DNA from: Crambe crambe
Lineage: Eukaryota > Porifera > Demospongiae > Poecilosclerida > Crambeidae
NCBI GenBank assembly: GCA_963924555.1
Contig: OZ004595.1
Span: 992,001-1,056,000 of the forward strand
Reading direction: 5' to 3'
DNA: 64,000 nt
The stretch's first letter is position 1; every line of letters begins with the position of its first letter. Positions 183-48,577 of this stretch are shown here, one piece after another. The position numbers were made by a program, and so were the translations under genes. Under the pieces are notes generated by a model that had not been told where the DNA came from, did not search any database, and saw only the letters and a program-made list of their open reading frames with translations.

Positions 183-3100
183 ATGGCCAGCTCTAAGATC
201 ACCCCTGATATGACCACAGAGGACCTGTGTTCCCTTCTCAAGAAGAGCGGAGTACCAGCTTCTGACCTAACAAAGATCAAGGGTATAGACTTTGTCTTAG
301 CAAGTTGGCTTGTTTGTGATGTGTTAATACTAACACCATTGCAGAAGGGGGCTACAATGGACAGAAGATTCTAGACCTTGATAGTAATGGAAAGTCAGAG
401 CTTAAGTTATCAAAAGCTGGTGAAACATCCTTAATTAAAGTAAGTCTATCTACATGTACCTGCTGGCAAAAAATGAAAACTGGGCATATGTGCAGTAGCC
501 CAAGTCCATTCCAATTTATGCAGTGCTAGTTTTTCTCTTTATGACCAAGTGCCACACCCACTGATTCATGTGTACATAACTCACCAGTGCTTATTAATCA
601 TGCATAAGTCTGGGGGTATATGTAATAATATGCTATATATGTGGATTCCAACAATCTGATTGGTACATGGTCTTGAATAATCCATGGTATTCAATGGCCT
701 TATTCATGCCAGTAACGACATTTCTGAAGATGATACAGTCAAAGTGCATTGGCTTATCTTAGTAGTCTGGTGTAGCGGCGACCCTTACCAACCCAAGTGA
801 AGGGGAAGGGTCTGGGGACATTAGCATCAACAACTTTGTCACTTTGGAATGTTAATTTTCATCCAGATTATCACGTGCGCAGTATAATCATAATTTTGCA
901 CGTATATAAACAGCTGCCTGGCTGGAATCAACTGTAGAATCCAGTTATATATAATAAAATGCTATAATGATTCCAGACCAGTCGTGAGTTGTGGTGAGCC
1001 AAAGTTTTAAGAATGGCCAAAAATGACTTGGTAAGACTGTGTAGCTCATCCATGCACATGATTCATACTTGGCTTGTGCATTGTACCAGACACGTTGGAA
1101 GAAGCCTTACCATGTTAATATGTTCTTGACCTTGTATTCCTGATTCCTCTTTCTGCCAGGAAGGGACTGTTAATGACCTTAATTACAGGTACTAGGTGGA
1201 GAATACTATTTCCTTCAATGCTATAGAAGAGTTTAGTGTATGCACGAAATCGATGAAAAAATTTACCCCACGAAAAAAAATTCTCACTCTGTACCTTTTC
1301 ATTTAATTATCAAACTCCGCCCCCTAATTGACTTGCATTCTGTTATTGTAGATGAGCAAAAAAGCGTCTGATGGTGAACCAAACACCGATGCTGGGATCT
1401 TTGCCAAGTTCAGACTCGGTTTCGGTGTTGATGGATCCAATCCCTCCCCCTTCCGAGATGCACATGAAAAGATTCTCTCCATTCCCGAAGACCTCTTGAA
1501 TATTGAATGCATCACCAACAGGAGAGAGGAACCAAGTTATGAAGAACCAATTATCAGCATCAAGGACTACGATAGGCTCGTTAAATCTTCAGTTGACAGT
1601 GAGGAAGGAGAGACTTTGGTACTTCCTGTTGAGGCAGAGTATGCCAGGGAGAGATCCAGGAACATGACTGCTCAAGGTATGTTGGAGAGAAAATGGAGGA
1701 GGAGGAGGGAGAAATTGATCACACACACACATTTTCCAACCCCATCATAGTGGCAGTTCTTTAGAAAGATCAGAATCTTTTAAAATACCCTACAGGTAGG
1801 AGAATAACTACTCGTGTCGTATCTTTCAAACCTTCTGCCGCCTCAAATGGGAACAATTTTGAAGAGGAATTCTGCAAGCACCTGAGCAAAAATTTTCCAG
1901 AGATTAACAGCCAACCTGGAGGTACCATTGCAGAAAAGGTGGAACAGTATATTCAAGATGAGGAGAAATTCAAGACTGCCTCGGAGTTTACCGCTTGCTC
2001 GTTCATTCGATCCAAACAAATCACCCACTATATCAGCGCCATTGAACTGGGAGCTATAGATTATTCCATGCATTTCATGGCTATTAATAGGGAGGACATG
2101 GCTGCTAATAAAGAGGACATGGCTCCTAATAAAGAGGACATGGCTGCTAATGAAGAGGACATGGCTACTAATGAAGAGGACATGGCTGCTAATAAAGAGG
2201 ACATGGCTGCTAATAAAGAGGACATGGCTGCTAATAAAGAGGACATGGCTGCTAATAAAGAGGACATGGCTGCTAATAAAGAGGACATGGCTGCTAATAA
2301 AGAGGACATGGCTGCTAATAAAGAGGACATGGCTGCTAATAAAGAGGACATGGCTGCTAATAAAGAGGACATGGCTCCTAATAAAGAGGACATGGCTACT
2401 AATAAAGAGGACATGGCTACTAATAAAGAGGACATGGCTACTAATAGAATGGACAAGAGAGTTGTTGATGAAACTGATGGAAGTGAAGTCAAACTGTATA
2501 TTGCCACCAAGAAATGTCCAGGGATTGGGAACGTGGAGAAAGTGTGTCCTGGATGTGGAGAGGCAGTGATCAAGTATAAGATGGCACCTCTTTCTAACTT
2601 AATTAGTCAAAAGGAGACAAAGAAAATGTTCAGAGAAGCTATTCAGCTTTACCTTGACAAGAGTTGTAAGTACCTTAATAAATCTTTATGCTCCTATAAC
2701 CTCACAGGGTAGAGGCAAGGGGAGCAATTTATCCCCCTGAAAATGACTTTGCCCCCCTCAAATTTCTCCGAATAAAATCCCTTCCATAATCTCGAGTGTA
2801 TAAGAATTGTGATGTGCACCCCTTTCATAAGTGCAAAGGTCACTAACTACCATTTCTTTCATAAGTGCAAAGGTCACTAAGTACCATTTCTTTGATAGTG
2901 CTGTCATTGACTTCATTTTGTAGTAATAATAAAATATAATATCACTACAGGTGGACCGTTTCTTATCAAGTGCTGCTCTGATGATCATACCATGTATTTG
3001 AGGGTCATTCACTTTGATAACAAGTATGTCGTTGTGAGCACTGACAAAGAAATTAAAGCTAGTCAGTTCTTTGTGGAGAAATCTGTGTGCCCGGGAGAAT

Positions 3101-3579
3101 TCAACATTGCCTATTATGGAAAGTTGAAATCCTCTCACACTCGCTCCACCAAATATGGAAAATACCTCAGAACGAATTCGAGGGAGACAGGGAAGGACGA
3201 TAATCCTCCAGAGATGAGCAGTGAAGAATTACCTCAAAATTTCATCCTTAAAGACAGGCTTAAAAATGTTACTCATCACCTGATTCCACTGTGGGAAGAT
3301 AACCCTTACTACATCATGTTGGGGCCCCGAGGAGTGGAGAGCTATCTAGTGAATAACAAAGAACTGAAGCAACCTTGCTGTGTGCCTAAGATTGAAAACA
3401 AGGAGAACAGTGTGTGGCAGTTGCAGCGGGTGCAACCCAGTGTCATCCCACAGAGTGCAAAGGGGGCACCACCATCTCCAGATGATGACGATGACTACCT
3501 AGCCACTGACATCCCTGAGTATCATGTGGACCAAAAAGACTTTGATTATCAATTCAATTTAGCTACAAAGCAGAATTAA
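183..3579 (+). CDS. SAM-domain protein with coding minisatellite and possible beta-trefoil C-terminus
   Basis: Five exons fit splice sites and phase: 183-282, 345-439, 1352-1676, 1796-2665, 2951-3579, giving about 672 residues. I do not recognise a named orthologue. Residues ~10-70 (exons 1-2 and the start of exon 3) look like a SAM domain: an acidic TTEDLCSLLKK helix, then YNGQKILDLD and a final basic helix. Residues ~265-385 are a 7-residue repeat (A-N-K-E-D-M-A) encoded by a 21-base minisatellite. After it comes a short Cys-rich stretch (KKCPG...VCPGCG). Exon 5 has spaced hydrophobic beta-strand repeats (SQFFVEKS, FILKD, VWQLQRV) that recall a beta-trefoil (fascin/IL-1/FGF type fold); this is inference. 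There is no signal peptide, so a cytosolic adaptor role is plausible. A decayed partial copy lies at 9475-9965. The exon 1 donor (GTATAG) is weak. Confidence 0.6.
2092..2448 (+). repeat. 21-base coding minisatellite, about 17 units
   Basis: The unit GAGGACATGGCTGCTAATAA(A) is repeated in frame within exon 4 of the SAM gene. Most units are identical; a few have GCT to CCT or ACT changes, or AAT AAA to AAT GAA. A degenerate half unit precedes it at ~2071-2091. Because 21 is a multiple of 3, unit gain or loss keeps the frame. The array is also open in a second plus frame and in a minus frame. Confidence 0.95.
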
Positions 3580-6187: not shown

Positions 6188-7146
6188 TCGAAACTGAAGG
6201 TGAATTCTGTATAGTTAGTTCTAGCAGAGATAATAAAGAAGTCAGGAAGTATTAAAAGGAAGTGAAGTCCAGTCCGGGTAAGTTGGAAAAAACTAGTCTA
6301 TTACTTCTGAATCTCTGTGTTGTTCATTCCATCACAGTAGCTATAGCTACCAATCTCTGGAGGAAAAGTGAATAAATTGAAAATTACTCCCTACATGTAG
6401 TTCATTCATCTGATAAGCTATATATAGACTACAGTATACCACTAGATCTGGAGGGAATACTGCCTTATTATAGCTAAATGGCCCAGGATATGATGCAATT
6501 GATTTGGAGTATTAGATGCTCTAGCTATATAATATATATATATACATAACATGATTTTTCTCAATAATGGCTAGATAGCTATAGCTACCTGGTAGCCAAC
6601 TAGTTTATAACTAGCTAGCTCAATATAGTTAGCTATAGCTCTCTTCCCTCTGATTATGGCTACTTTAATCATGAATGAGATTATGGTATTGCTGTTATAC
6701 ACTAATGAAGGGGAAGGTCGTTATGAAAAGGTCGTTATAACACACATCCATGAGGTATGGGGAAATGGAAGCAAAATCTGACATCTGGAACTATCAGGGG
6801 GAAACGTCCTATAAATACATTAGCTACATATTATATCTTAAGTGTTGTTTATCGTACTGTTGCTTCAAATTATTGTGAGTAATGTATGTACTGTACCATA
6901 TTGAATGTTTGTAAATCTTGCATCATTTAAAAAAGCAAACATATGAATCATAAAAATAACAGTCCATAGTACTTAATCATAATATGTCATTGAGGAAATA
7001 ATGAATAAATAAAGGAATAGATGAAAATGATAGAAATAGATATGGATAATGTCAGCTAATAGTAAAGTGATACCTATTGCCAGAATAATAATAACCTATA
7101 ACATTTTTAGATTGGATTATACCTATTATCATTGCTATAATTACAG

Positions 7147-7878
7147 TTAGCTGTGATTATGTGGTGTATATCCTACTGTTATGTCTATTGGATAAATGGA
7201 CCAGTTCCAAGTTCTGCAAGGATCTCCCTTGCATGCTTCTCGTTTGAAGGCCATAACTCTCATCCTTTCTTCATTACAGTAACCTCTATCAAAGAGGGAG
7301 GGGTTTACAAGCTTAGCCTCAACTCTGAAACTTGGGAAGTAGTTGGGATCCCGTACACATGTGTAATACCACAAGCAATCACCAGAGCTGATATTTTTTG
7401 GCTTGTAGTATTCATTAATAAATCTATTACAAGCAGTTCTTCCAAGGTCTCTGGTCCGTTCATTTTGACCCAAATCACTCAGTTTGGAGTTCTTCAGCAA
7501 TCCAGAAAGGTACAAATCTACGAGAAGAAATGCATTGTAGGATGCCTCTATGGGGATACCAAAACTGGCATCGATGTACTGCTCTATAGCTTCTTGCAAA
7601 GTTTTGCACTGGCTTGTTCTAGTTTTATCCCCACACATATCACTCCCCTGGACATCTGGAGGCATTGGGACTTGTAAAGTTGTAGCCACTGTGCTTTCAG
7701 ATGTCTCTCTGCTGAATCGCTCTAGATACTTCTTTTTTAAAGGCTCTTTCTGCTCATCTTTAAATTTGTCACTAATATAGTTCTTCCCAGGATAGGGTAA
7801 ACCAAAGACTTTTGGTTGAAAGAAGATCAGCACTGCAGCCAATACTGCAATACTCAAATTTTGAATTCTTGGCTTCAT
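7147..7878 (-). CDS. IL-17-like secreted cytokine, type A
   Basis: Single-exon gene, 243 residues. Residues 1-26 form a signal peptide (basic start, hydrophobic core AVLAAVLIFF, end VFG). A basic pro-region ends in a possible furin site R-F-S-R (54-57). The C-terminal half carries the IL-17 pattern: C168-L-W170-Y-Y172-T-C174, D177-P, then Y180-F-P-S and VEAK, followed by paired Cys (201, 216, 221) and W224-N-W. The last strand ends ITVGYT, where family members have GCxC, so the canonical knot cysteines are missing. Known IL-17s are secreted dimers that signal through SEFIR receptors; that this one does so is inference. Near-identical to A' (11051-11815). A trunk/Spatzle-type cystine knot is the alternative. 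Confidence 0.68.
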   Translation of the reverse strand: MKPRIQNLSIAVLAAVLIFFQPKVFGLPYPGKNYISDKFKDEQKEPLKKKYLERFSRETSESTVATTLQVPMPPDVQGSDMCGDKTRTSQCKTLQEAIEQYIDASFGIPIEASYNAFLLVDLYLSGLLKNSKLSDLGQNERTRDLGRTACNRFINEYYKPKNISSGDCLWYYTCVRDPNYFPSFRVEAKLVNPSLFDRGYCNEERMRVMAFKREACKGDPCRTWNWSIYPIDITVGYTPHNHS

Positions 7879-8032
7879 TAGTGGTGGTGATGGATTTGTT
7901 TCGTTGGTGAGAGGTATGATTCTCTAGTGGTTTAAATAAGAGGGGCAGGGCTGATGGGAAAAATTTGGGACGGCGAAACTGAAATAACGTCATGCCGTTC
8001 ACGTCATGTCAGCATTCATATTATTTAAGCAT

Positions 8033-8042
8033 GCGCATGCGC
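8033..8042. promoter_or_regulatory. NRF-1-like palindrome upstream of gene A
   Basis: GCGCATGCGC, within ATGCGCATGCGCAT, lies 155 bases upstream of the gene A start. A further ACATGCGCAC lies at ~8074. Two ACGTCATG boxes lie at ~7987-8008, and the first is also present upstream of A' (~11965). Confidence 0.4.
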
Positions 8043-8300
8043 ATAATTATGCGCTGGATACTGCACATGCGCACTATACTACACTGCGGGGCCGGGGACC
8101 AGTTGCAACTAAAATTATAATGCCAGTTCACAATCAGTGCCTTAATTTGTAAGTAGCTATTGATTCATAAACAAATATTCCATTCTATTATTATCAAATA
8201 TCTATAATTATTCTACTGTACTGTTATGAAGTGGAGGAATTTTTTCTTTAAATAATCATAATTTATCCATGAGGGAGAGAATGCTATATTGCTGATTTCA

Positions 8301-8972
8301 TCAGTCATCAGACCTAAATTTGTACCCTACCACCGTGCTTCCACACATACAAGAACACCAGTGTGGCAGTGTGTTATCACTCTCACAACGCTTTCTCATG
8401 AATCTTGGATTTTCTATTACGACTTCTTCACAGTACCGTGGCTTATGTTCATAAACAGCTTCAACTTTATAACTTGGGAAGAATGTCTTATTCTGACTGC
8501 ATTGATATTGCCAAGAGCAGTCACCATCTTTTGTCATTAGGTTATATCTTGATATAACATTGTCACATCGAATTTGTGCATTCCGCTTTTCTGATGTTGA
8601 GCTTGTACTCAGATTGAGGTGTGTTTCCTCTAAATCTCCAGAACCATCGATGAGTCCTGAAAAGAAGAGGTCTTGTAAGGAGAAGAAATGGAAAGTATAT
8701 TCACTGCTGGGATCTCTATCTGTTAAATAGTTGCGTATAGCGTCTCCCAGAGACATACATGAATCGATGCTATCGGAGCAGTCACAGGAGCAGTCATCAT
8801 CATGAGTGCTTCTTCTTGTATATGCAGAGTTGGAATTCGAGTTCAATGGCTGGTCTTCAGAATTGGATGAGGTCGTTGGTGCTGGTGTTGGCATTAGGAG
8901 CGAACTCTTGACTAGGAGGAGTGAAACCAATAGTATGATTTGGCTGAGTCTTACGATTGCACTGGACACCAT
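8301..8972 (-). CDS. IL-17-like secreted cytokine, type B
   Basis: Single exon, 223 residues. I chose the ATG at 8972 because the paralogue B' starts with the same MVSS and because a signal peptide (VRLSQIILLVSLLLVKSSLL) follows at once; the frame is open further upstream. A Ser/Thr/Pro-rich pro-region leads to T-R-R and an acidic Cys cluster (DDDCSCDCS). It shares with type A a SLGDAIRNYL helix and LQDLFFSGLI. The cytokine core reads GDCSWQYQC, then FFPSYKVEAVY, RYC, KRC, and ends HWCSCMCGSTVVGYKF. The order C-x-W-x-Y-x-C, then FPS and VEA, matches the IL-17 signature. The final GCxC is replaced by GYKF, and Cys are instead clustered just before the last strand. The gene lies 422 bases upstream of A on the same strand. 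Confidence 0.65.
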   Translation of the reverse strand: MVSSAIVRLSQIILLVSLLLVKSSLLMPTPAPTTSSNSEDQPLNSNSNSAYTRRSTHDDDCSCDCSDSIDSCMSLGDAIRNYLTDRDPSSEYTFHFFSLQDLFFSGLIDGSGDLEETHLNLSTSSTSEKRNAQIRCDNVISRYNLMTKDGDCSWQYQCSQNKTFFPSYKVEAVYEHKPRYCEEVVIENPRFMRKRCESDNTLPHWCSCMCGSTVVGYKFRSDD

Positions 8973-9045
8973 GATTATTGATATTGATTGATAGATTGCA
9001 GATGTGGTGAGTAGTTTAATTCTTACTTCCAAACAGGCACCCATT

Positions 9046-9055
9046 TTATAGACGA
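9046..9055 (-). promoter_or_regulatory. TATA-like box upstream of gene B
   Basis: CTATAAAATG on the minus strand, about 75-85 bases upstream of the chosen ATG. A related TATAAAG lies ~95-105 bases upstream of B' (about 13746-13753). Confidence 0.35.
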
Positions 9056-9299
9056 GAGGATGAGTGACTAAAGGCAATAATGATAACATAGCTGCTAGGA
9101 GCTAACCCCATAAAAGTGAAAGATACACAGTACCTCATGACCTGACCATGCAGCATTACCCTCATCCCCAGGCTCTCCGAGGCATGTGCCAACAGGAGAT
9201 ATCATGATTTCCTTTTTGTAACATTTATAGGAAATTAGTTAGGGGGGCCTAGGCCCAGCCAGTTATTATAACGGGGACTCGTAACAGGAAGCGCCATTA

Positions 9300-9474
9300 T
9301 AAGTTTATTAAGCTGATAATTCAGACATGTTACCTAATAGTCATTATTTATGATGTCAATATTGATCTGCTGGAATGAATGTGTGTCTTGTTGGTGTTGG
9401 AATAATAGCTAGTTAAATAGTGTTTAAAAAAAAAAGAAGCTGGATATTGCTCCCCCTTGCTGACAGCTGCATCC
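9300..9474 (-). pseudogene. Remnant of a type C IL-17-like gene (3' end only)
   Basis: Bases 9300-9400 match the region 3' of gene C (~14156-14290, with TTTATGATGTCAATATTGAT shared). Bases ~9435-9474 match the last codons of C. Read on the minus strand they give PGCSCQQGGAISS, against AGCSCLPRRLMSS in C. Homology stops at ~9475, where SAM-gene sequence begins. All the rest of this C copy is gone. Confidence 0.75.
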
Positions 9475-9660
9475 TGGTGAATAACAGAGAACTGAAGCAA
9501 CTTTACTGTGTTTTTTTTTTGTGTGGCAGTTGCAGCGCATGCAACCCAGTGTCATCCCACAGGGTGCAAAGGGAACACCACCATGCACCTCTGGATGATG
9601 ACAATGTGATGTAACCACTGAGTATCATGGGACTTTGATTATCAATTCAACTACAAAAGA
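9475..9660 (+). pseudogene. Decayed copy of the SAM gene last exon
   Basis: Starts GTGAATAACAGAGAACTGAA and matches 3357-3565 (codons for VNNKELKQ..., VWQLQRVQPS, DYQFN). It has a large deletion plus a T-run in place of the KIENKENS segment, and several frame changes around the acidic DDD stretch, so it cannot encode the domain. Confidence 0.85.
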
Positions 9661-9871
9661 TTGATTGACAGGTCCACCATAGCTATATTATTAATGCTAG
9701 AGTTCTCAATGCATTTCAAATGATCAATGTAAAGTATAATATGAGAACAGATATGCATATCTGAGGGAAGATATGGAGTTTTGGTATGGATTTTGATTAA
9801 TCCATCATAAAGCCTACATAGATAGCTACATGGCACATGAGGTCACACAAAACAAATTTAGACTTGACAGA

Positions 9872-9965
9872 GGCATGGCCAGCTCCAAGATCACCCTGGG
9901 TATATGGCCACTGAAGATATGTGTATCCTCCTCAAGATGCTTTGACCATCTTCTGATAACTTGAG
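9872..9965 (+). pseudogene. Decayed copy of SAM gene exon 1
   Basis: GGCATGGCCAGCTCCAAGAT matches the SAM gene start at 180-200. It continues with homology to the TTEDLCSLLK region but with small indels that break the frame after about ten codons. It lies ~210 bases after the last-exon remnant and in the same orientation. Confidence 0.8.
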
Positions 9966-11050
9966 TTTCGACATGCCATCACTATAGCTAAGGTTTCTAT
10001 AGCTAGCTATACCATTTTTCCAGCTACTGAAACTATGCACTTTCTGGAAAAGGTTATTATTGAAATGAACCTGCATGTGAAAAATTTCCTTAACATAATA
10101 TTGTAGTGGAAATGAGTCTGAAGTCAGGAAGTAAGGAAGATGGTTTTGAATAGGGGGGCCACCTAAGTAATAGTCAAGACCACGCCTATTTTACTGGGGG
10201 GGGGGGAGGGGGGGAGGGGGCACTAATGACTAGTTTTTAGAAAAAAATCAAACTTATCTACTTCCTGAAACATGCCTTTGTAGATTTCACTTTTATTACA
10301 GCTGTGAAGTATTATGCAGTGTAGTATAGTAGCTATAGCAATTATGCAATCAATAATAAGGGGGGCCCTGCCCCCTGTCTGAAAATAATAGGGGCCTGTT
10401 CCTATGGCAATGCTTTACTCCCTGTATAGCACATTCAAAGCTATAGGCTAAGGATACAATGCAACAGATTTTGAGCTATTCAAAAAAAATAATTAATAAT
10501 AATAATATTAATAATAACTGCTTAAAAGCATGACCTCTAACTCTATCCAGAGCTATAGCTAGCTAGATCGTATATAGCTACCAGCTCTGATTTCTCTCTT
10601 CCCTCTCCAGGTCATTATAACATGTACCCATAGAAATGGAAGCAAATTTGACATCCTGGAACTCTCAAGGGGGAAACATCCAATGAAAACATTACGTATT
10701 ATATCTTAAGTGTTGTTTATCGTACTGTTGCTTCAAATTATTGTGAGTAATGTATGTACTGTACCATATTGAATGTTTGTAAATCTTGCATCATTTAAAA
10801 AAGCAAACACATGAGTCATAAAAATAACATAGTTCATTGTCCACTAGTACTTCAATCACATGTCATCATCATTGAGGAAATAATGAAGGAATAAAGAAAT
10901 GAATGAGATAGATAGCTAGCTGAAAATGATATAGATGAAGTAGCTAATTAACATCAGCTATAATAAGTGATACCTGTTGCCAGAATAATAATAAATAAAT
11001 AATCTATAGCTATAGAACATTTTTAGATTGGTGAACTGTGATACACCTAG

Positions 11051-11815
11051 TTATCTGTGAGTATATCCTACTGTTATGTCTATTGGATAAATGGACCAGT
11101 TCCAAGTTCTGCAAGGATCTCCCTTGCATGCTTCTCGTTTGAGAGCCTTAACTCTCATCCTTTCTTCATTGCAGACACCTCTATCAAAGAGGGAGGGGTT
11201 TACAAGCTTAGCCTCAACTCTGAAACTTGGGAAGTAGTTGGGATCCCGTACACATGTGTAATACCACAAGCAATCACCAGAGCTGATATTTTTTGGCTTG
11301 TAGTATTCATTAATAAATCTATTACAAGCAGTTCTTCCAAGGTCTCTGGTCCGTTCATTTTGACCCAAATCACTCAGTTTGGAGTTCTTCAGCAATCCAG
11401 AAAGGTACAAATCTACGAGAAGAAATGCATTGTAGGATGCCTCTATGGGGATACCAAAACTGGCATCGATGTACTGCTCTATAGCTTCTTGCAAAGTTTT
11501 GCACTGGCTTGTTCTAGTTTTATCCCCACACATATCACTCCCCTGGACATCTGCAGTTGCATCTTCCTCATCTGGAGGTGTTGGGACTTGTAAAGTCGTT
11601 GTTGTAGCAGCCACTGTACTTTCAGATGTCTCTCTGCTGAATCGCTCTGGATACAACTTCTTTTTTAAAGGCTCTTTCTGCTCATCTTTAAATTTTTCAC
11701 TGATATAGTTCTTCCCAGGATAGGGTAAACCAAAGACTTTTGGTTCAAAGAATATCAGCACTGCAGCCAATACTGCAATACTCATATTTAGAATTCTCCT
11801 TGACTTCATTTGCAT
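11051..11815 (-). CDS. IL-17-like secreted cytokine, type A' (paralogue of A)
   Basis: Single exon, 254 residues. The start MQMKSRR is followed by the same signal peptide as A (SIAVLAAVLIFFEPKVFG). The pro-region ends P-E-R-F-S-R, again a possible furin site. It has about ten more residues than A before the first Cys (EEDATA insert and extra Thr). The mature part is almost identical to A, including CLWYYTC, DPNYFPS, REACKGDPC and the terminal ITVGYT lacking GCxC. The core coding sequence matches A over several hundred bases with few or no differences, whereas the flanks have many indels. This suggests recent gene conversion or strong constraint. Confidence 0.68.
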   Translation of the reverse strand: MQMKSRRILNMSIAVLAAVLIFFEPKVFGLPYPGKNYISEKFKDEQKEPLKKKLYPERFSRETSESTVAATTTTLQVPTPPDEEDATADVQGSDMCGDKTRTSQCKTLQEAIEQYIDASFGIPIEASYNAFLLVDLYLSGLLKNSKLSDLGQNERTRDLGRTACNRFINEYYKPKNISSGDCLWYYTCVRDPNYFPSFRVEAKLVNPSLFDRGVCNEERMRVKALKREACKGDPCRTWNWSIYPIDITVGYTHR

Positions 11816-11965
11816 TAGTGATGGTGATGGATTATTGTTAATTTTTTTTCTTTTTCCGTTGGTGAGAGGAATGGTTCTCGTTTATATCTGGTCTATAAAA
11901 GTTACATAAGAGGGGCAGGGTTGATGGGAAAAATAGGGACGGCGTATTATTGGAACAGAAAATAA

Positions 11966-12966
11966 CGTCATGCTGTACTGTAAGCAATGTCGATGTCAGC
12001 ATTAATTATTTCCAGCATGCGCGCGCATACTTCACTGTAAGCGAGAGCGAGCGTTAATCCATGTAGTAACCTGGACCTTAATGAAGGAGAGGAGAGATGC
12101 GATGTTTTCGTTGTGGCAGGCCTAGGGATTGAGAGAGATGTTGGGTGGTGCACTGCAGGGCAGGGATCGTGGACAGGATTATCACCGAGCTATGTATCCA
12201 GCCCACACTGGTAGCTGCTGCCCCAAATGCGACATTGATGGCTTGTCAGAGAGGGAGTCAGTCTGCTGTCCTATGTGATTGGCACCCACACCACAGCGTT
12301 ACGTTTACTAAAGTGCTGAGGAACTGTTGTCATCTTTACTGAATTCATCATCTGCAGAATTCATTATGCCATGCTGTGCAGATTGTTTTTATGCCTTCTG
12401 TGCACTATCAGTACAACAGGCCCTAGAGAGCAATGTGTATGCCTAGATTATAGCTACAATTGCAGTAAGTTAGACAGAACACAGACATTAGTTCACTGAA
12501 TGCCCTCTAGGCGACTCTATCAGTGTATTTTAACATTAAAATAACAACAACAAAGAAGCTCCATTAAGTCAACAAAAAAGGAGAGAGTAATTCATTAAAC
12601 TATGATTTATATACGTACAATAATAACTTATAATCTTATGTTCTGTTCATGTTGCATGCTCGTGTATATCTACTACTTAGTTATACTTTTAGTTTCTTTT
12701 CCTGTTCTTTTCTCAATCATTATCATAATAGTCCAACCCACTAGAGAGCCTATAATTATATTCCATGCCAATCACAATAATTAGAATGCATAATTTGAAA
12801 ATATAATATATAATTCCATGATTGAGAACATGTACATAGAGATTGGTAGTTTTAAAAAGAGAATTGAATATATATATATCTATAAACATAAGTGATGTAT
12901 GGTGCAGTGTTCATAGCAAGCCAGCTTGCTGTAAATTGCTTATAATCTCCTAATTTCATGTAAAAA
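11966..12966. other. Spacer between A' and B', partly unique insertion
   Basis: At 1151 bases the A'-B' gap is much longer than the 422-base A-B gap. Bases ~12050-12530 have no counterpart in the first block and look like inserted DNA without a clear gene. The rest is AT-rich. Confidence 0.5.
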
Positions 12967-13650
12967 TCATCGGCCTTCAGACCTAAATTTGTACCCTACC
13001 ACCGTGCTTCCACACATACAAGAACACCAATGTGGCAGTGTGTTGTCACTCTCACAACGCTTTCTTATGAATCTTGGATTTTCTATTACGACTTCTTCAC
13101 AATACAGTGGCTTATGTTCATAAACAGCTTCAACTTTATAACTTGGGAAGAATGTCTTATTCTGATGGCATTGATATTGCCAAGAGCAGTCACCGTCTTT
13201 CGTAGTTAGGTTATATCTTGATATAACATCATTGCATCTTCCTCGTGCATTCTGCTTTTCGGATGTTGAGCTTGTACTCAGATTGAGGTGTGTTTCTTCT
13301 AGATCTCCAGAACCATTGATGAGTCCTGAAAAGAAGAGGTCTTGTAAGGAGAAGAAATGGAAAGTACGTTCACTGCTGGGCTCTCTATCTGTTAAATAGT
13401 TGCGTATAGCGTCTCCCAGAGACATACATGAATCGATGCTATTGGAGCAGTTACAGGAGCAGTCATCATCATGGGTGGTTCTTCTTGTACGAGCAAGTGT
13501 GCCATTCATTGCAGAGTTGGAACTCGAGTTCAATGGCTGGTCTTCAGAATTGGATGAGGTCGTTGGTGCTGGTGTCGGCATTAGGAGTGAACTCTTGACT
13601 AGGAGGAGTGCACCTAATAGAAAGATTTGGAAGATTGTACTGGATACCAT
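12967..13650 (-). CDS. IL-17-like secreted cytokine, type B' (paralogue of B)
   Basis: Single exon, 227 residues. The signal peptide (FQIFLLGALLLVKSS) is followed by a Ser/Asn-rich pro-region ending in R54-T-R-R57, a canonical furin-type R-x-R-R that gene B has partly lost. The mature part follows B closely: CSCNCSNSIDSC, the SLGDAIRNYL helix, GDCSWQYQC, FFPSYKVEAVY and the terminal HWCSCMCGSTVVGYKF. Differences from B are scattered substitutions plus a short NGTLAR insert. N-glycosylation sequons are present (for example NGS and NLS in the middle region). The role is inferred from the C-x-W-x-Y-x-C / FPS / VEA pattern. Confidence 0.66.
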   Translation of the reverse strand: MVSSTIFQIFLLGALLLVKSSLLMPTPAPTTSSNSEDQPLNSSSNSAMNGTLARTRRTTHDDDCSCNCSNSIDSCMSLGDAIRNYLTDREPSSERTFHFFSLQDLFFSGLINGSGDLEETHLNLSTSSTSEKQNARGRCNDVISRYNLTTKDGDCSWQYQCHQNKTFFPSYKVEAVYEHKPLYCEEVVIENPRFIRKRCESDNTLPHWCSCMCGSTVVGYKFRSEGR

Positions 13651-14421
13651 GATTATTGCTACTGATAGATTGTAGATGGGTAGGCTATTAGAGTAGTTTT
13701 AATTCTCACTTGATTTGTCTGATGATCCCAACAGGCACTCATCTTGACTTTATACTCAAAGCTAGGGGGGATGGATGGTGATTCTAGACAACATTGCGTA
13801 AATGATAGTTGCTCCAACATAGCCACAGCCGGTTTGAATCTAGGAGCTAACCACAGGCCTTCCCGTTGTTGTACAAGTCGAAGTTTTAGTTATACGAGTT
13901 CCCCTGCGGATAATCAATTAATTTCTGACCCCAAAAGTGAAAGAAAGTTTGAATACACACACACGCAGTAATGACCTGATCGGCATATGCCAACAGGAGA
14001 TTCAGTTCAACATCGTAATTTCCTTTAGCTATTAATATCCTCTTTCTTTTTTTTTTTTCTTTTTTTTGTAGCGTTAGCAGAAAATCTATCTAGCTAGCTA
14101 GCTAGCTAGGCCTATAATTATGGGGGACTTGTAACACAAAAGTACTGCTATCTGTAAGTTTATAAATATTAAGCTGATAATAGCCCTCCCATTCAGACAT
14201 GTTACCTAATACTAGTAATACATTATTCATTACATCATTATTTATGATGTCAATATTGATCTGCTGGAATATTGCTATGTAGACTGTCTTGTTGGTGTTT
14301 GAATATAATTATGCTATTGCAAAAATCAGTATCAAAATAGTGCCATGACTAATTCATCATTAATATAATATCCAAAGGTAAAAAAATGATAGAATAATAG
14401 CTAGTAAACTAAGTAGTGTAT
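13651..14421. other. Spacer between B' and C
   Basis: No gene seen. It contains a T-rich run (~14045-14068), AGCTAGCTAG repeats, and a segment (~14156-14290) that is homologous to ~9300-9400 and therefore belongs to the duplicated block. Confidence 0.6.
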
Positions 14422-15135
14422 TCAGCTGGACATTAATCTCCTAGGTAGACAGCTGCATCCTGCTATGACTGTTCCTTCTTTATCAGGTACCCATTTTTCT
14501 TTTCCATTTTCACACCCTATCCTCTTTAATAATTGATAATTGATAGAGTGTTCCCTTGGACGACATGTGGTATTTGTGCAAGCATCATCATTATCATTGA
14601 AATTATCATATCCACATCCAGTACACTTAACCCCAAGCACTAACCGAGGGAAGTAATTTGGACCTAGGTAATCTAATCTGGGTACCGTATTGCAGTGTTT
14701 CGGCGAGCACTCTGAATGAATTTGTATCCCAGGTTCTACACAATTGGAGTTGGTAATATTGAGGACTGAGAGGTTTTCAACAGTATCCCCCACTGGCACT
14801 GTTAATCTCGTTAGTGTGATGCAATTGCTGTAGATGAGGTCTCGGTCATTTAAGTACTGCATCTCTAGTTCTTCGATAGATAGGGGCTTACAACAACCAG
14901 AATCAATTTCAGTCCTACGTATATTCTGGACAAGATTTCTGATCAGTTCAGCAGTGAAATTCGTGGTGTGATTATAGTTGATAAGAGATTGATTAACGGC
15001 GCGTCTAACTTCCAGTTCAAGCCTCTCAGACTCATTTTCTCTTGAAGATCGGAAATTGGAAGGAATTGGTGTTGGATGCAGCTCTGATAGAGTCCACATC
15101 ATCAGAAAAATTTGGAGAATACTCAGTGATTTCAT
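14422..15135 (-). CDS. IL-17-like secreted cytokine, type C (canonical cysteines kept)
   Basis: Single exon, 237 residues. Signal peptide MKSLSILQIFLMMWTLSEL, then a pro-region with Asn-linked sequons (NQS, NHT, NFT) and a GCC motif. The C-terminal ~85 residues give the best IL-17 match in the cluster: LGPNYFPRLVLGVKC, TGCG, a variable loop, then IGC, KWVPDKEG and TVIAGCSC. This reproduces the family order P-x-x-x-x-x-A-x-C-x-x-G-C ... C ... V-x-x-G-C-x-C, with both Cys of the last strand. It is the most diverged of the five in the N-terminal half. A cystine-knot family other than IL-17 (Spatzle/trunk) remains possible. Confidence 0.7.
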   Translation of the reverse strand: MKSLSILQIFLMMWTLSELHPTPIPSNFRSSRENESERLELEVRRAVNQSLINYNHTTNFTAELIRNLVQNIRRTEIDSGCCKPLSIEELEMQYLNDRDLIYSNCITLTRLTVPVGDTVENLSVLNITNSNCVEPGIQIHSECSPKHCNTVPRLDYLGPNYFPRLVLGVKCTGCGYDNFNDNDDACTNTTCRPREHSINYQLLKRIGCENGKEKWVPDKEGTVIAGCSCLPRRLMSS

Positions 15136-16289: not shown

Positions 16290-19147
16290 ATGGCGTCTAC
16301 GAAACAGAATCCATCACAGCCATCACACGGACCCGAGAGTAGCCAGTCGGAGCCGTACTCGTTGGATTTTAGCTTTCAAACATCTGAGTATGACAGGTGA
16401 TCTACTTTAAACACTTAAAACGCCCTAGCTGAACATTGCAAACAGGTGGGCTTTAATTAAAATACATGCCAACACACTGTTTTCAAGGGGTGCACATGTA
16501 AAACACTCTATACTGATAACACAATGAGGCTACCACAATCCAAGATGCACCACTATCGATAAAATATTTAATTAATAGGAGTCCAGACAATGAGTTGGAC
16601 CCAGATATCAAGGATGCCATCTATGCTAGGATGTACTTCACCAGTAGCACACCTGACAAGTCTAAAGACAATTCATCCCATCCTACCCAGCAGTCAGGTT
16701 AGTTCGAGTATTCTGGTTAGTGTTATACGTAATTTTATGACCCTTGGATTGAAATTAGGGCTACTGCATGTGGGCAGTACTGACTAGTTGCAGTGAAAAT
16801 TCCATCTTAGTAACGTAGGTGGGGACTTCTCACCAATCAGTTGAATAGCACACTCGGCCCATTACGAAGGGAAAACTCCCTAGAACTTAACTGCTTACTT
16901 CACTAGCAGAAGTTTAAAATGGGATACAATAAATTGAATTCCTCTACTATGTGAAGTTTTTGAGTATCAAAAACCTATTTGTATGGATTCATCAAATTCA
17001 CCCCTACTTCATTTTTTTTTTTGTTGATGCAAATCCATCGGTGAAGCCATTTTTGTAGGCTCGGAAATAGGAAGACTTAGGAGTATAATCCTTAGCATAT
17101 AGAAATACTACAAGTTGTTGTCATTGTTACTGCTAAGTAAACAAATGTAATAATCACGGTTACTATTATTATCAACTTTTGTTCTTATTTCTGAGACGTC
17201 ACTGGCTTGTGCTCGGCAAGTGATAACATTTTCTCATGCTTTGTTTATTTTCATCTTCTATTGTGTGTGACTTCTTACCAACTTTCTTGTAATCTTTTAT
17301 TTGTATTGAAAGTGGGGGTTTTTCCCCTTCTCAGAAGTTGGTTTTTCATTTGGGTAGCTTCTGTAGTGCTATTGTTATACTCTTCTTTTTTCAGAGCAAG
17401 GCTTAAAATAATAACAATACTACTGTGGCCGTTTCATTTCAAGAAATGGTCCAACCTATTTTCAGTGTTTAAAGTCACTTTCTGTATTTCTAAAAGTACT
17501 GCTTATGCAAACAAGTTGGACAAATTGGTCTTTCTAGGAAGAGTACGTAGATCTTTCTAGGACAAGTACGTAGGTCTTTCTAGGACTTTCCAGGACAAGT
17601 ACATAAGTCTTTCTAGGACAAGTATGTACGTAGGTCTTTCTAGGACTTTCCAGGGCAAGTACATAGGTCTTTCTAGGAAAGTACGTAGGTCTTTCTAGGA
17701 CTTCCAGGACATGTATGTAGGCATTTGGGCAAGTAGGACAGATAGATCTATACCCCAATATGTCCTGATTTGGGGAGAGCTCAACTAGGAAAAAGAAAAC
17801 AGACCTTTGCACCTCAGTGGGGAAAAAGCGTTTCCACATCATTAGTTAGTGATGTATGATTTTTTTTTCAAAGACGATGGTTTTCCAATTGCTTCATACT
17901 GCATGAGGAATGTACTGCAGTTTCCTGCGACATTCCCAGTACATATTAATCCTTCATGGCCACATCCTCACCAAAGAATGTGATTTCAAGCGTTCTTGCT
18001 TCACGTGTGAGCCACATCCTCAGCAAGCTTCCAGAGGAAATATAATTTCACCATGTAATGCTTAAAAAAACACAAGCGTTCTTGTGGTTGGAATGGGACA
18101 GCCACTTCCTTCCGAAGGCATTTTGTCGCATATATATATATACCTAGGTTGTTTCTTCAAGAATGTTTGGTGAATATTCCCACATCCATATGGTACATCC
18201 TAATGTTTGTCAGGGTACATCCTAATGTTTTGTTGGTCCACTTCCTTCCCAGTATCTTCTTCTTTCTTTGCACAGCCAGTGTCCTTTAGTGCTTCCTTCG
18301 TGGTGCATGGGGGAGTTTGTGGAGAGACATTTTTCGGCCCAACCTCATCAATATGATGGAGAGTTCTTTGTACATGTGGGGGAGTTTGAAAGCATGCTGG
18401 CAGGCAAGGCAAATATCAAAGTATTAGAGGTCGCATCCTTCTGGTGAGGACACTTGTGATACAGTATTCTGTGTTGTCCCCAGCTGTCATGGAAACTTAG
18501 CATCATGTGATCATGGTTCCCAATGGAAGCTTGCCTAAACTTAGACCTATCTCCGTGTGTCTTTTGTCTATTTGTCCCAAGGCGTCCTGGAATTTGCCTA
18601 AACTTAGACCTGCTGGTCCCAATGTGTCCTGAAAACTTTATCCCAATGTGTCCTGAAAACTTTGTCCCAAATGTGTCCTGGTATTTGTCCCAATGTGTCC
18701 TGAAAACTTGGACTTGCTGGTCCCAATGTGTTGCCTAAACTACATGCAATTCCCATATTATCAATATAGATTGAGCTTCTATTTTTATCTCTTTAGGAAG
18801 TTATTATGAATTTTTGTTTTCAGTGCTAAGTGAAGAGAGAAACAGGAATACATCAGAGAGTCAGTGGAACATCTCTCTCAGCCTCAAACCAGTTTCCTCT
18901 CCTTCCAGTAGAACTTCCAAGGAGACAAAAGTGGACGTGTGAGTGTTATTTTGTTTGTGTTATTTGTTTATTGATTGTTTTTGTTTTTGTTTTTTTGCGT
19001 CATTTCTTACTATGCTGCTGCAATAGTGTGCTTAAGACTTGGGGGTGGGGAAGGAGAGGGTGTGTCCCTTCTTTAATGCAATATTAGTGCACTAAAACAA
19101 GTTGGGAAGAAGAAGGGGAGAGGCCTGTCCCTAATAATGTGGTTTGG

Positions 19148-28653: not shown

Positions 28654-31600
28654 ATGGAACAATGACTTCATGGGTCCTTCAAAGTGACAGTTTGACATTT
28701 GAAGACATGTCTCTTTTGTTTTGTTGCCCTGCCCTGCCCTGCCCCCTCCCTCTCCTCTCCCCTCCCCCTGATTGCTTGCTATTTGTGAGGTGCATATTTG
28801 AGGGGGGAGAGGAGAGGAGAGGGAAATGATTCCCCTTGACCTTTGTCCTTTGACCTTTGTTCCTTGACCTTAGCATGGATATCTTTGACACCTACTATGA
28901 ATGCACTGATTTCATAATGAATTAAATGACTTAAATGTTTTATTTCCGTAGTAGTGCTTATGATAGTAGATTAGGGTGATTTTACATGTACATAATGACT
29001 TGTACATGCATGTGACGTAATGTTCTGTTTCCTTAGGGACGGGACGCTTATGAAAGGCTGCATGAGTCAGAGAGTTCAGGTCGTTACTATGGGAAACGCA
29101 ACACCAAGTGCAGCAATTGCAAACAGAGAGGACATGGGGGAAAAGTCTGTCCATGGCCAAAGGTCAGTCAGTCAGTCAGTATACTACTGCAGATTGATAG
29201 TATACTAACAAGTATACTCATGTAGTATACTAATAATTAATGCAGTATACTAATAAGTATAACATTTAACATTGATAGTATACTAACAAGTATACCAACA
29301 AGTATACTAATACAGTATCAGTATACTAACAATAACTACATTATCATGCCAAGACAGACTGATGCAGTATACTAATAAGTATACTATGTGGTTATACTAA
29401 CATTGACTAATACAATATACTAACATTACAAGTCACAAATACACTGCCAATGTTTTCCCAATAATAAAACAGTATTAGTTTAACCTCTTCATTAAGTTTC
29501 CCAATGGAGAAGGATCTTGTGACCTCTGTCTAGTTCCCAATGAATGGACACTAACCCTCCCTCCCTTCCCTCTATGCTCAGAGACATTCCCAAACTGCTT
29601 GGTGTAAGTCCCTCTCCCTCAGATCCACTGTATATTAGCAACACATCCAATATAGTCATAGTTTCCCAAAAATGGTCCTTTTCCTGATCTGAAGCCATTT
29701 CAAGATAAAACGAGACGGTGATTAACACCATAATCGAATTGCTGGCGTGTGTGAATTCCAATGTTGGGTAGATCCTAAAACTGCATCTCTTGCTTATTTG
29801 GAAGTCGGAACAATAGAACTCTAAAATTTCATTGTTTTTGGAGTAACAGTTTCTCTCAAAATATATCTTTTGGACTGTTTGCAACAGCTGAAATCTGACC
29901 AATTCTCACTTTTGACTGTGCAGGAGTGAGCAGAATTTTCATGTAAATTGGCGTATCGATTATCGCTAATGTTGATCATCTGCTGCAGGCCTAAATGTAC
30001 CCTTGGACAACTATGGGTCATTGCAGCCCTCAGTCCTCCAATTACTGAGCACCTTATTTAGAAGACACTGCATTCCTATAACCTTTATACACACTAGTCT
30101 TACACTCCTCAATCCTCTAATTAAGAAGACACTGATTAAGCACCCTATATTGAAGACACTGTATCCCTGCTAACCTACATGCTTGTAACCTCTAACTTTA
30201 TAACATTCTAATCTTGAACACCTTTTTTTCTTCTTCTTTCTTTAGCGTCACACTGTGTGCTACCTTTGTGCTGGGCTCAATCATGTCAGTTCCAGCTGTC
30301 CCGTTAACATTTGCACTTACTGCTATCAGAAGAAGCATAGAGGTAGTTCCTGTCGAGTGCCGTGGGCCAGTCTCAGCACCATGTGCAACAGGTGTTACAT
30401 GAAAGGACACCACGCCTCTGTAAGTCAGTCATGTGATTTGTGGATGTGATCATGTGACCAAAATTGTTGCTAATTCCTCTTTTTGTTTCAGATTTGTCCA
30501 GATTTGTGGCGACAATACCACCATACGACTGTGAGTTTCCAATTTCTGTGCCTCCGATAGCCCCTTTTACCTCTCTCCCCTTCCCTCTCTCCCTCCTTCC
30601 TTCCTTCCTTCCTTCCCTCCTTCCCTCCCTCCTTCCCCTCTCCCTTCCCTCTCCCCTCCCTTCCCTCTTTCCCTCTCCCCCTCCCTCCTTCTCCCCCTCC
30701 CTCCTTCCCCCCTCCCCCTCCCCTCTCCCCCTCCCTCCTTCCCCTCTCCCTTCCCTCTCCCCTCCCTTCCCTCCTTCCCTCTCCCCCTCCCCCTCCCCTC
30801 TCCCCCTCCCCTCTCCCCTCCCTCCTTCCCTCTCCCCCTCCTCCTTCCCTCTTCCCCTCCCTCCTCCCCTCTCCCCCCTCCCTCCTTCCCTCTCCCCCTC
30901 CCTCTCCCCCCCCTCCCCTCTCCCCCTCCCTCCTTCCTTCCCTCTCTTCATAGTATGAAAGCAGCCGTCTACAAACAATCCCTGGCTCTCAACAAAGAAG
31001 AACTGACAAGGTTTACTGTTGTAACTGCTCTCAGAAAGGACATTTTGGTTTTGTAAGTTCAACACACCACACGACTCACTGAACATATTCAAAGAAAGGG
31101 ATCAAGTATGTAGTTTAATTAAAGTGGGTATTGGATGCCAAACCAGCATTTCCTCATGACCAAACTGGAGTTATCTCTGAAAAAAAAAACAGACTATATG
31201 TTAATTAGCTATCACTTGACCTATTTGAATCTCACTCATCTTTCCCCTTTGATGGAGTGAGCTTCTACTCTGTCCCTAATCCACTATTACATGTGAATGA
31301 GAAATCCTAGACACACCCTTCCCCTTGTTCTATTTTCAGTAACAAAAACATCAACAACAAAATAACAGGGTTGTTATGAATGGTTGGTTAGATAAAGATA
31401 TATTGTGATGTATGTATCTGCAATGTTTTCCGTATGCACACACACACACACACACACAATTCTTGCTCATCGAAACAAGAGTTACAATTTCATTCTCTAG
31501 AATCAAACCTTTACTGCATTTAAAAGTGGCTTTGCTTAAGTGAGAGAGATGTAATGCTTTTAGTGAGAAGCTTTACGTCTTGGAATCTTTGTCCTTTGTT

Positions 31601-32802
31601 AGGAGGATTATTTTTTTGTTGTAGACAGAATAGAGGGTACTTTCAATCATGGTTTCTCTTCTAAAGATGCTTGACTTTCTGTTTATTGGATTCATGCATG
31701 ACATCATTAATTTTTGTCTAACGAAAATGGTCTTGCAACATACACACGTAGGAAGCTTTTCTTTTTCTTTCTTTTTGGTAAAGCTTCTCACATCAAGAAG
31801 AATGGGAAGTTTAGAAAGAATCCAGTTCCTTTGAGTTTTGAATCGGTTTTTGCATTACTTGAACACAAAAGTTCAAACTCTTTCAGCTTGTAGGGAATCA
31901 GTCAGAAGCAGATCATTAGATCATAGGGGGAATAGTCTGTTATTTGTGTATGACAAACACTTACTAAGTACCACTTATGGCTAAATTGAGGGCTTTAAAG
32001 TGGGTGCTCCTGGTATGTAATGGAGAGGATATAGGGTTTCATTGGAGGGAGAAGGCCAATCATCATCTTGCTTTGATCATTAATTAATAATAAGGAAAGT
32101 ATTCCTTGCATAATCTCAATTCTTATAAATTGGAATTGACAATCCTCCAATTAGAACAATTTTTCTAATTGATGAGCACCAATGTACACTTATTAACGCC
32201 CACTTCCACAAAACCACCTGCAAACTTGCTGTTGGTGTAAATCAATTACGTATACATTATACTCTCTCTGATTGGAGCGTTATGTAAACACGTCTGGTCC
32301 GGTCACTTTCAGTGTCGGCGGGAAATGTTGCCTAGTCGGAAATGAAAGTAAATGATAGTTTATTTGCCACATTCCAAACTCATAGACTCACTTATTCCTG
32401 TACCGTTGTTGTTGTTTTTAAATGTTTATTTGGAGTTTGCATCAAAGAGCCTTGCAAGAGAGGGGATTTCCCCTCCTTCCCTTGCAGCTGTTTGATGTTT
32501 GATTGCAATGTGGAAATTTTTTTAATTTTTTTTTTTATTGAGCTAAAATTAGCATTAGTTATGAAATGGTAGCTCAATGATGAGTGGAATCCCTTTCACC
32601 ATAACCTTTTGGGGACCAATAATATCTGCTATACCTCCTTCCCCCTTTTGATGTATGTATCAATGAACTATTCAACTTTTACTTCCTTTATCAATTGGAG
32701 TCATTATCCCCTCCATAGCAGTAAGGAAATGACACAGTTCCTTTGACCTTGTAGTCTTAAACTTATGATAGCGCTAAGGATAGCTTAAGATATTTTAAGC
32801 AT

Positions 32803-48200: not shown

Positions 48201-48402
48201 CCACTGGATCAACTAGCGGCTGCAAGCATATTCCGCACAGCAGTTCATAGTCAATATTGTCTGGGTAATCGTAAAGATGATTCTTCCCGAGCTGGTGGCC
48301 TTGTCCACAGCAATCACACACAATAATGTTCCCCATTCGCTTCAGCTTGAAGCTGTTGGATTTTTTCAGGCTGCAATTTCTTCTCGGTCTTGATCGTTCC
48401 AT
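39286..48402 (-). CDS. LNX: LNX-type RING + PDZ E3 ubiquitin ligase
   Basis: Eight exons in phase on the minus strand: 48402-47850, 42269-42169, 41125-40933, 40801-40578, 40414-40220, 40130-40008, 39904-39699, 39571-39286; 626 residues. Exon 1 encodes HLYDYPDNIDYE, a C3HC4 RING (CGICLQPLVDPVDTPCGHTY...) and TRAF-type zinc fingers (CPNNAYC..., CPREDTRSGC). Four PDZ domains follow: GLSISW with RILEIND (1), LGIQIRSS with RILEANG (2), FGMNVAGGKGS with ILLSVNN (3) and LGFSLVGG with EITKING (4), plus the LNX-specific LSPDWVKWMKK between PDZ3 and PDZ4. In vertebrates LNX ubiquitinates Numb and other PDZ ligands. The linker between zinc fingers and PDZ1 is only ~15 residues and has no NPxY/NPxF Numb-binding motif. 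Intron 1 is ~5.6 kb. Confidence 0.93.
41300..42160. other. LNX intron 2, no other gene seen
   Basis: Intron between the two exons that share PDZ1. No strong repeats and no convincing ORF. Confidence 0.6.
42270..47849. other. LNX intron 1 (5.6 kb), no gene seen
   Basis: The largest gene-free stretch of the right half. It has one clear tandem array (45868-46085), a GAAAGAAAGAAG-rich stretch (~46375-46430) and otherwise unique DNA. No supported ORF on either strand. Confidence 0.6.
45868..46085. repeat. 32-base tandem repeat, about 6.5 units
   Basis: Unit: TACACACCCCCTATACATAT, then ACACCCCTACCC. Units are nearly identical. Located in LNX intron 1. Confidence 0.95.
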
Positions 48403-48577
48403 TTGTAATATTTCAACTAGCTAAGAGATAGTTAAAAGATGCTATACTGGCTCTAAATACTTTAAAGCAGCATATTTTGTACCCAGTGATAATTATTTTC
48501 ACGATACATTAATTTACCACAAAAATGATAGTAATAAATTGCACCGATATCAATATCCGGTTTTACTTCCATGCAAT

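Follow-up and report, generated by a model that had tools for sequence, protein, structure and literature searches.

Does a sponge possess ligands of the interleukin-17 (IL-17) family? The question is raised by a stretch of 64,000 nucleotides of the Crambe crambe genome (contig OZ004595.1, here C18, positions 992001-1056000; hereafter the window), from an assembly of 119 contigs totalling 143 Mb, in which five genes that we call A1, B1, A2, B2 and C stand in tandem (Table 1). A first-pass annotation, made from the letters alone, had read them as a cluster of IL-17-like cytokine genes. As far as the accessible sections of the papers go, the origin of IL-17 was placed in Nematoda in 2015 (PMC4517768) and in Cnidaria in 2021 (PMC8353272), and a review of June 2026 describes the family as not present in Porifera (PMC13337447). 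We conclude, with a probability of about 0.78, that A1, B1, A2 and B2 form a demosponge branch of the IL-17 family that evolves rapidly and has been duplicated in tandem, with C as a possible and more distant member.

The IL-17 relationship of A1, B1, A2 and B2 is supported because these genes can be linked at profile level to three tandem genes on another contig, C13. The Pfam IL-17 model (PF06083) returned nothing from the genome at the default limit; the C13 genes emerged only at a looser one, up to E 10, with 25.7, 25.2 and 22.5 bits (cut-off 24). When whole proteins were searched, the three genes reached 28.1, 23.0 and 21.8 bits with this model, and none of the other Pfam families exceeded it. 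L062 is above the cut-off in both searches, L063 in one (25.2 versus 23.0) and L064 in neither. A fourth genomic match was discarded as chance: it lies on C20, has E 0.77 and contains one stop. Compared with human IL-17, the C13 profile gave a probability of 90.7 and P 1.2e-6, and its score was reached by 0 of 200 shuffles; P values given here are those of single comparisons, and neighbour correlation is lost in column shuffles. We regard the C13 genes as IL-17 proper, which is surest for L062.

When the C13 profile was run with all filters off over the 728 open reading frames (ORFs) of at least 40 amino acids (aa) in the window, A1 (E 9.3e-5), A2 (6.7e-4), B2 (0.0042) and B1 (0.034) took ranks 1 to 4 and the next ORF followed at 0.7. 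Comparison by hhalign with a joint C13 and human profile gave P 1.3e-6 for A and P 6.5e-4 for B, each score being reached by none of 150 shuffles. A nine-member sponge profile, composed of the three C13 proteins, A1, A2, B1, B2 and two copies from contig C8, matched 26 PDB sequences at E 10 or below; IL-17F or IL-17A filled the first 24 places (E 0.0025-0.16), followed by OspC and IL-25. The same sponge family scored 39.9 against human IL-17 (0 of 200 shuffles) and 15.1 against a neurotrophin profile used as control (11 of 200). A profile of six human IL-17 proteins ranked A1 first (E 0.69) and A2 second (E 0.70) among the window ORFs, with unrelated ORFs starting at E 1 and B1, B2 and C ranking lower. 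By hhalign against human IL-17, 0 of 300 column shuffles reached the score of A and 3 of 300 that of A+B. Published motif 1 (PMC4517768, as given in the accessible part of that paper) scores 9 in A1, equal to human IL-17F, a value reached by 4 of 20000 shuffles; in B2 and C it stays within the range of their own shuffles, and motifs 2 and 3 from the same source show no excess over shuffles in A1, B2 and C, the three proteins shuffled. At the level of sequence, these comparisons support A1, B1, A2 and B2 as probable relatives of IL-17 outside the canonical Pfam model. We call them IL-17-like, not canonical IL-17, because they do not match PF06083.

The residues on which the relationship depends can be followed by counting, without gaps, from the serine of human S-P-W (offset 0). 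Tryptophan at +2, proline at +14 and alanine at +20 are common to six human proteins, the three C13 proteins, A1, A2, B1, B2 and one C8 protein; A and B thereby share with human IL-17A-F/IL-25 (PF06083) a C-terminal domain with W-x-Y...P...A at the same spacing, and their middle cysteine aligns with the fifth conserved cysteine of human IL-17. Differences from the human proteins are a position below Pfam reach, four knot cysteines missing at the aligned places and an extra cysteine after W-x-Y. Offset 0 is a cysteine in C13, A1, A2, B1, B2 and the C8 copy. The C13 genes resemble A and B in being tandem single ORFs with C-x-W-x-Y-x-C and the same P and A positions; unlike A and B, they match PF06083 and keep the cysteine found at +22 in human IL-17, where A has leucine and B tyrosine. 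A pattern derived from the human/sponge alignment, and in that sense selected post hoc (W-x-[YL]-x9-P-x5-A), matches exactly A1, A2, B1 and B2 among the 728 window ORFs, against 0.185 matches in shuffles. The motifs that the first-pass annotation had attributed to the whole cluster are distributed unevenly: C-x-W-x-Y-x-C and V-E-A occur in A1, A2, B1 and B2 and not in C, and (D)P-N-Y-F-P is DPNYFP in A1 and A2 and GPNYFP in C, with NKTFFP in B1 and B2. The single gene said to have a terminal GCxC is indeed C alone (AGCSC).

Two further cysteines of A and B deserve attention. According to the accessible parts of three papers (PMC5457136, PMC4517768 and PMC10055819), vertebrate IL-17 has two serines that are cysteines in invertebrates (two of the three); the invertebrate cysteines at these sites form a third disulfide (one of the three), and mussel and vertebrate bonds differ there (one of the three). 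Placed on the window proteins by alignment, both positions of this pair are cysteines in A and B: one is offset 0, and the other, the cysteine of GYC, GVC or YC, aligns to the serine of human MNS in a joint alignment read by eye, in which C13a is without it. In the parts of the same papers available, mussel and sea urchin IL-17s have this likeness to A and B, as well as tandem arrays; they keep at least part of the remaining knot cysteines, whereas A and B have none of the four at aligned places. The sea urchin genes have one to three exons in the same sources.

Table 1. Positions of the cluster genes, flanking repeats and related genes elsewhere in the assembly (window coordinates unless a contig is given)
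Feature	Position	Strand	Description
A1	7147-7878	minus	IL-17-like predicted secreted protein, 243 aa, single ATG-to-stop ORF
B1	8301-9089 (longest ORF); 8301-8972 (likely gene)	minus	IL-17-like, predicted secreted, 223 aa from 8972
A2	11051-11815	minus	IL-17-like predicted secreted protein, 254 aa, duplicate of A1
B2	12967-13650	minus	IL-17-like predicted secreted protein, 227 aa, RTRR at residues 54-57
C	14422-15135	minus	predicted secreted cysteine-rich protein, 237 aa, C-terminus AGCSC; family unassigned
Repeat downstream of A1	6825-7033		repeat families D4 and D8
Second copy, downstream of A2	10693-10915		repeat families D4 and D8
L062-L064	C13:1356138-1360419	minus	three tandem single-ORF genes, PF06083 matches
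L015-L020, L023, L024	C8:1837970-1871451		two further intact B-type genes and several related pieces, most with stops
L003, L068-L071, L073	C16, about 3.36-3.41 Mb		at least six uninterrupted receptor-like frames, 558-660 aa
L002, L067, L072	C14		three tandem transmembrane SEFIR frames
L004	C19:5599437-5602793		caspase-type, SEFIR and Death-domain frames adjoining in that order

The cluster itself is much as first described. All five minus-strand ORFs run uninterrupted from ATG to stop, which is what single-exon or intronless means here, as read from genomic DNA alone. The start of B1 was put at 8972 because of its homology to B2. Each protein has 8-13 cysteines. The signal peptides claimed for all five correspond to a hydrophobic N-terminal stretch in every case, as judged by Kyte-Doolittle values only, with C the weakest (1.76). 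Furin-type RTRR sites were found in B2 and in the single C8 copy inspected, while A1, A2, B1 and C have dibasic pairs only. TATA-like elements (TATTTAAA, CTATAAAATG and GTATAAAG) were spotted by eye, with no chance estimate, within 120 bases upstream of the starts of A1, B1 (8972) and B2.

A1 and A2 are 95-97% identical, B1 and B2 are 90% identical over the mature part, and A and B are mutually related (E 6.4e-8 to 1.6e-10 within the window). The repeats downstream of A1 and A2 fit a duplication of an A+B block, of which they would be the mark. The ratio of non-synonymous to synonymous substitution rates (dN/dS), computed for the A and B genes and the C8 copies since C has no paralogue to compare, is 0.41 for A1/A2 and 0.43 for B1/B2, and comparing B with the C8 copies gives 0.30-0.33; these pairs are under purifying selection, and because of such values A and B are not chance ORFs. 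The near-identical C8 pair gave 0.84 on just four differences (dS 0.007). The decayed C8 copies point to recent gene birth and death. No additional copies of the cluster genes were found in the window by tblastn at E 0.01, and no relatives were confirmed in viral contigs or in bacterial and archaeal genomes.

The first-pass annotation had proposed looking in the genome for receptors with SEFIR domains. We found nine transmembrane SEFIR receptor-like frames, six on C16 and three on C14. A SEFIR search of the genome gave five loci, and a search with a receptor query gave eight places, one of them the query itself. The C16 frames combine a hydrophobic N-terminus, a cysteine-rich ectodomain, a transmembrane stretch (by eye) and a SEFIR-like tail; at E<=1, fn3 was detected in three of the six proteins and SEFIR in three. 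L003 has fn3 at 28.0 bits (cut-off 25) and SEFIR at 22.6 (cut-off 23), but 26.1 in the genome search, and L002 on C14 has SEFIR at 25.6. It is on this architecture that we base the putative receptor label. At three loci, on C12, C19 and C20, a SEFIR frame precedes a Death-domain frame (frames only), and the three frames on C19 are perhaps one gene. Similar domain combinations, transmembrane SEFIR and SEFIR-Death proteins, are described for placozoans in the accessible part of PMC6321704; no fibronectin domain is detected there in the transmembrane protein of placozoans, whereas half of the C16 proteins have one.

From the homology and from the receptor and adaptor architecture we infer the following pathway. 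A1, B1, A2 and B2 would be secreted, with B2 trimmed at RTRR, would adopt a beta fold of cystine-knot-like type and would form dimers. The receptors bound by them would have a SEFIR tail, a single transmembrane stretch and an ectodomain of fibronectin-III-like type. A dimeric ligand would bring SEFIR receptors together, the tails would recruit SEFIR-Death adaptors, and these might lead to a TRAF/NF-kB-type output. The tandem growth of both ligand and receptor groups suggests a possible role against microbes by analogy with sea urchin and mussel.

Several results weigh against an IL-17 identity for A and B. PF06083, to which the first-pass annotation had pointed, matches none of A1, B1, A2, B2 and C up to E 10, and the PDB gave no IL-17 when searched with A1, with C or with an A+B profile. 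For B alone against human IL-17, 45 of 300 column shuffles reached the hhalign score. Genome searches with a single A2, B2, C13a or C13b protein did not join the A/B and C13 groups at E<=1; those with single C13 proteins return only the C13 trio. The four vertebrate knot cysteines, which in human IL-17F are Cys72, 77, 122 and 124, are not found at the aligned places in A or B: VGY stands in place of VGC. One alignment sets CSC, from the CSCMC near the C-terminus of B, on the vertebrate GCTC, which makes the loss less certain for B. A and B thus appear, on alignment, to keep the cysteine pair that vertebrates replaced by serine and to be without the four that vertebrates kept. The C16 receptor profile found no IL-17 receptor in the PDB, its matches, all at E>=0.21, being fibronectin proteins, a bacterial-type SEFIR protein and others. 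The AlphaFold model of B2, whose alignment contained five relatives but neither C13 nor human proteins, is of low confidence (mean predicted local distance difference test score, pLDDT, 53; predicted template modelling score, pTM, 0.42), with seven strands, all after residue 91, and none of the 218 PDB matches returned for it by Foldseek up to E 10 is below 0.001. The structural comparison suggested by the first-pass annotation therefore remains divided, since the neighbours are nevertheless mostly IL-17: the best match is IL-17AF (E 0.40), and the best 50 of the 218, assigned by entry and not chain by chain, comprise 45 matches from IL-17 entries, two from neurotrophins and three from others, with TM-scores (template modelling) of 0.04-0.35. 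These neighbours mildly favour an IL-17 fold for the predicted model. What stands of the IL-17 signature first claimed is a distant homology of A1, A2, B1 and B2 by way of the C13 genes, and not a direct match.

In having a pro-region with a basic site, B2 resembles Spatzle and neurotrophins; A and B have no direct IL-17 model match, and there are the two neurotrophins among the best 50 structural matches. A and B could then belong to another cystine-knot ligand group, Spatzle-like or neurotrophin-like or a sister group of IL-17 that branched off earlier, and their likeness would be that of a shared fold. We hold this to be improbable. Searched up to E 10, Pfam gave A and B no match to the rival families named in the first-pass annotation (Spatzle, noggin or another cystine-knot family) or to neurotrophins, Spatzle being examined through Pfam only; the neurotrophin control scored well under the IL-17 comparison, and the nine-member profile put IL-17 at the top of its PDB matches with no neurotrophin listed. 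Slightly less improbable, but still unlikely, is that A and B derive from IL-17 and do not signal, being instead decoys, antagonists or effectors whose cysteine core has been rewired. The loss of the four knot cysteines at aligned places and the gain of new ones such as CSCMC in B would agree with this, as would the gene birth and death seen in the decayed C8 copies. However, dN/dS of 0.30-0.43 and the parallel multiplication of receptor-like genes speak against it, and mussel and sea urchin IL-17s likewise vary at these cysteines in the accessible parts of PMC5457136, PMC10055819 and PMC4517768. A diverged IL-17 branch remains our preferred reading of A1, B1, A2 and B2.

For C, the IL-17 claim meets weak and uneven evidence. 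Against human IL-17, 1 of 300 shuffles reached its hhalign score, in an alignment of 73 columns extending to the C-terminus; versus C13 the figure is 50 of 150, and versus C13 with human 23 of 150. Against larger families it is 8 of 300 and 11 of 200, and against the neurotrophin profile 64 of 200. At the aligned offsets, PN (+10/+11), P (+14) and C (+22) are present and W and A are absent. It could well be, and we put this only a little short of an even chance, that C is unrelated to A/B and to IL-17, an independent secreted cysteine-rich protein adjoining the cluster by chance. In keeping with this, C has no relatives in the genome at E<=1, is absent from the C13-profile matches listed among the 728 window ORFs up to E 5, and has its C13 score equalled by a third of the shuffles. 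Its comparison with human IL-17 argues the other way, as do PNYFP, KCTGC and terminal GCSC in IL-17 order and its place on the same strand of the same cluster. C also shows a weak match to Pfam TGF_beta (E 0.037, 15.2 bits, cut-off 27) at residues 57-102, before the motif region.

The wider evolutionary proposal is that a complete system of IL-17 ligand and SEFIR receptor existed in the ancestor that sponges share with other animals and was kept in this lineage with both sides multiplied in tandem, the divergent ligands relying on the third disulfide lost in vertebrates and doing without the two that vertebrates kept. We consider the odds of this proposal about even. Pfam-recognised IL-17 genes, a divergent IL-17-like cluster, transmembrane SEFIR genes and SEFIR-Death loci together in one sponge would move the ligand side of the IL-17 pathway back to the sponge split, and would supply definite genes with which to ask whether sponges use the pathway against microbes. 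There is some precedent, since SEFIR domains have been counted in sponges (PMC12909245) and one Amphimedon protein, A0A1X7VXB1, is a Pfam IL17 entry. In the accessible part of PMC8353272 its authors failed to find this protein in the genome and no cluster is described; we compared it by label only, as another sponge sequence called IL-17. No IL-17 was reported for Amphimedon in two surveys (PMC8353272, PMC4517768), to the extent of their accessible text, and the accessible parts of two sponge papers (PMC8242945, PMC7882143) name IL-17 only as a KEGG pathway. Searches of the open-licence literature, preprints being outside the scope, turned up no account of IL-17 ligand genes in a sponge. Scans can miss sponge IL-17 because proteins such as those in the window fall below Pfam reach.

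The first-pass annotation had reserved its evolutionary point for a sponge or another non-bilaterian. Silicateins are above all a mark of demosponges. On C15 lies a cathepsin-family gene with the sequence QGDCGSSYAFS, in which serine replaces the catalytic cysteine. With its exons joined by eye, its best PDB match is silicatein alpha (6zq3, E 1.8e-85; next cathepsin L, 4.2e-74), which points to a demosponge. The window is embedded about 1 Mb deep in a contig of 6.57 Mb, and a second large contig carries paralogues; contamination is therefore unlikely. Elsewhere in the window, plus-strand frames at 1352-3579 contain an M-A-x-N-K-E-D repeat and match MACPF weakly (E 0.0018, 18.9 bits, cut-off 21.5). 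At 47695-48420 (minus strand), 33 kb from the cluster, a RING finger is encoded with a weak TRAF-type zinc finger after it. A short direct repeat with the unit GTACGTAGGTCTTTCTAGGA is found at 17533-17678, and a long low-complexity purine/pyrimidine stretch occupies 30373-31101, with strong GC skew in 30001-32000.

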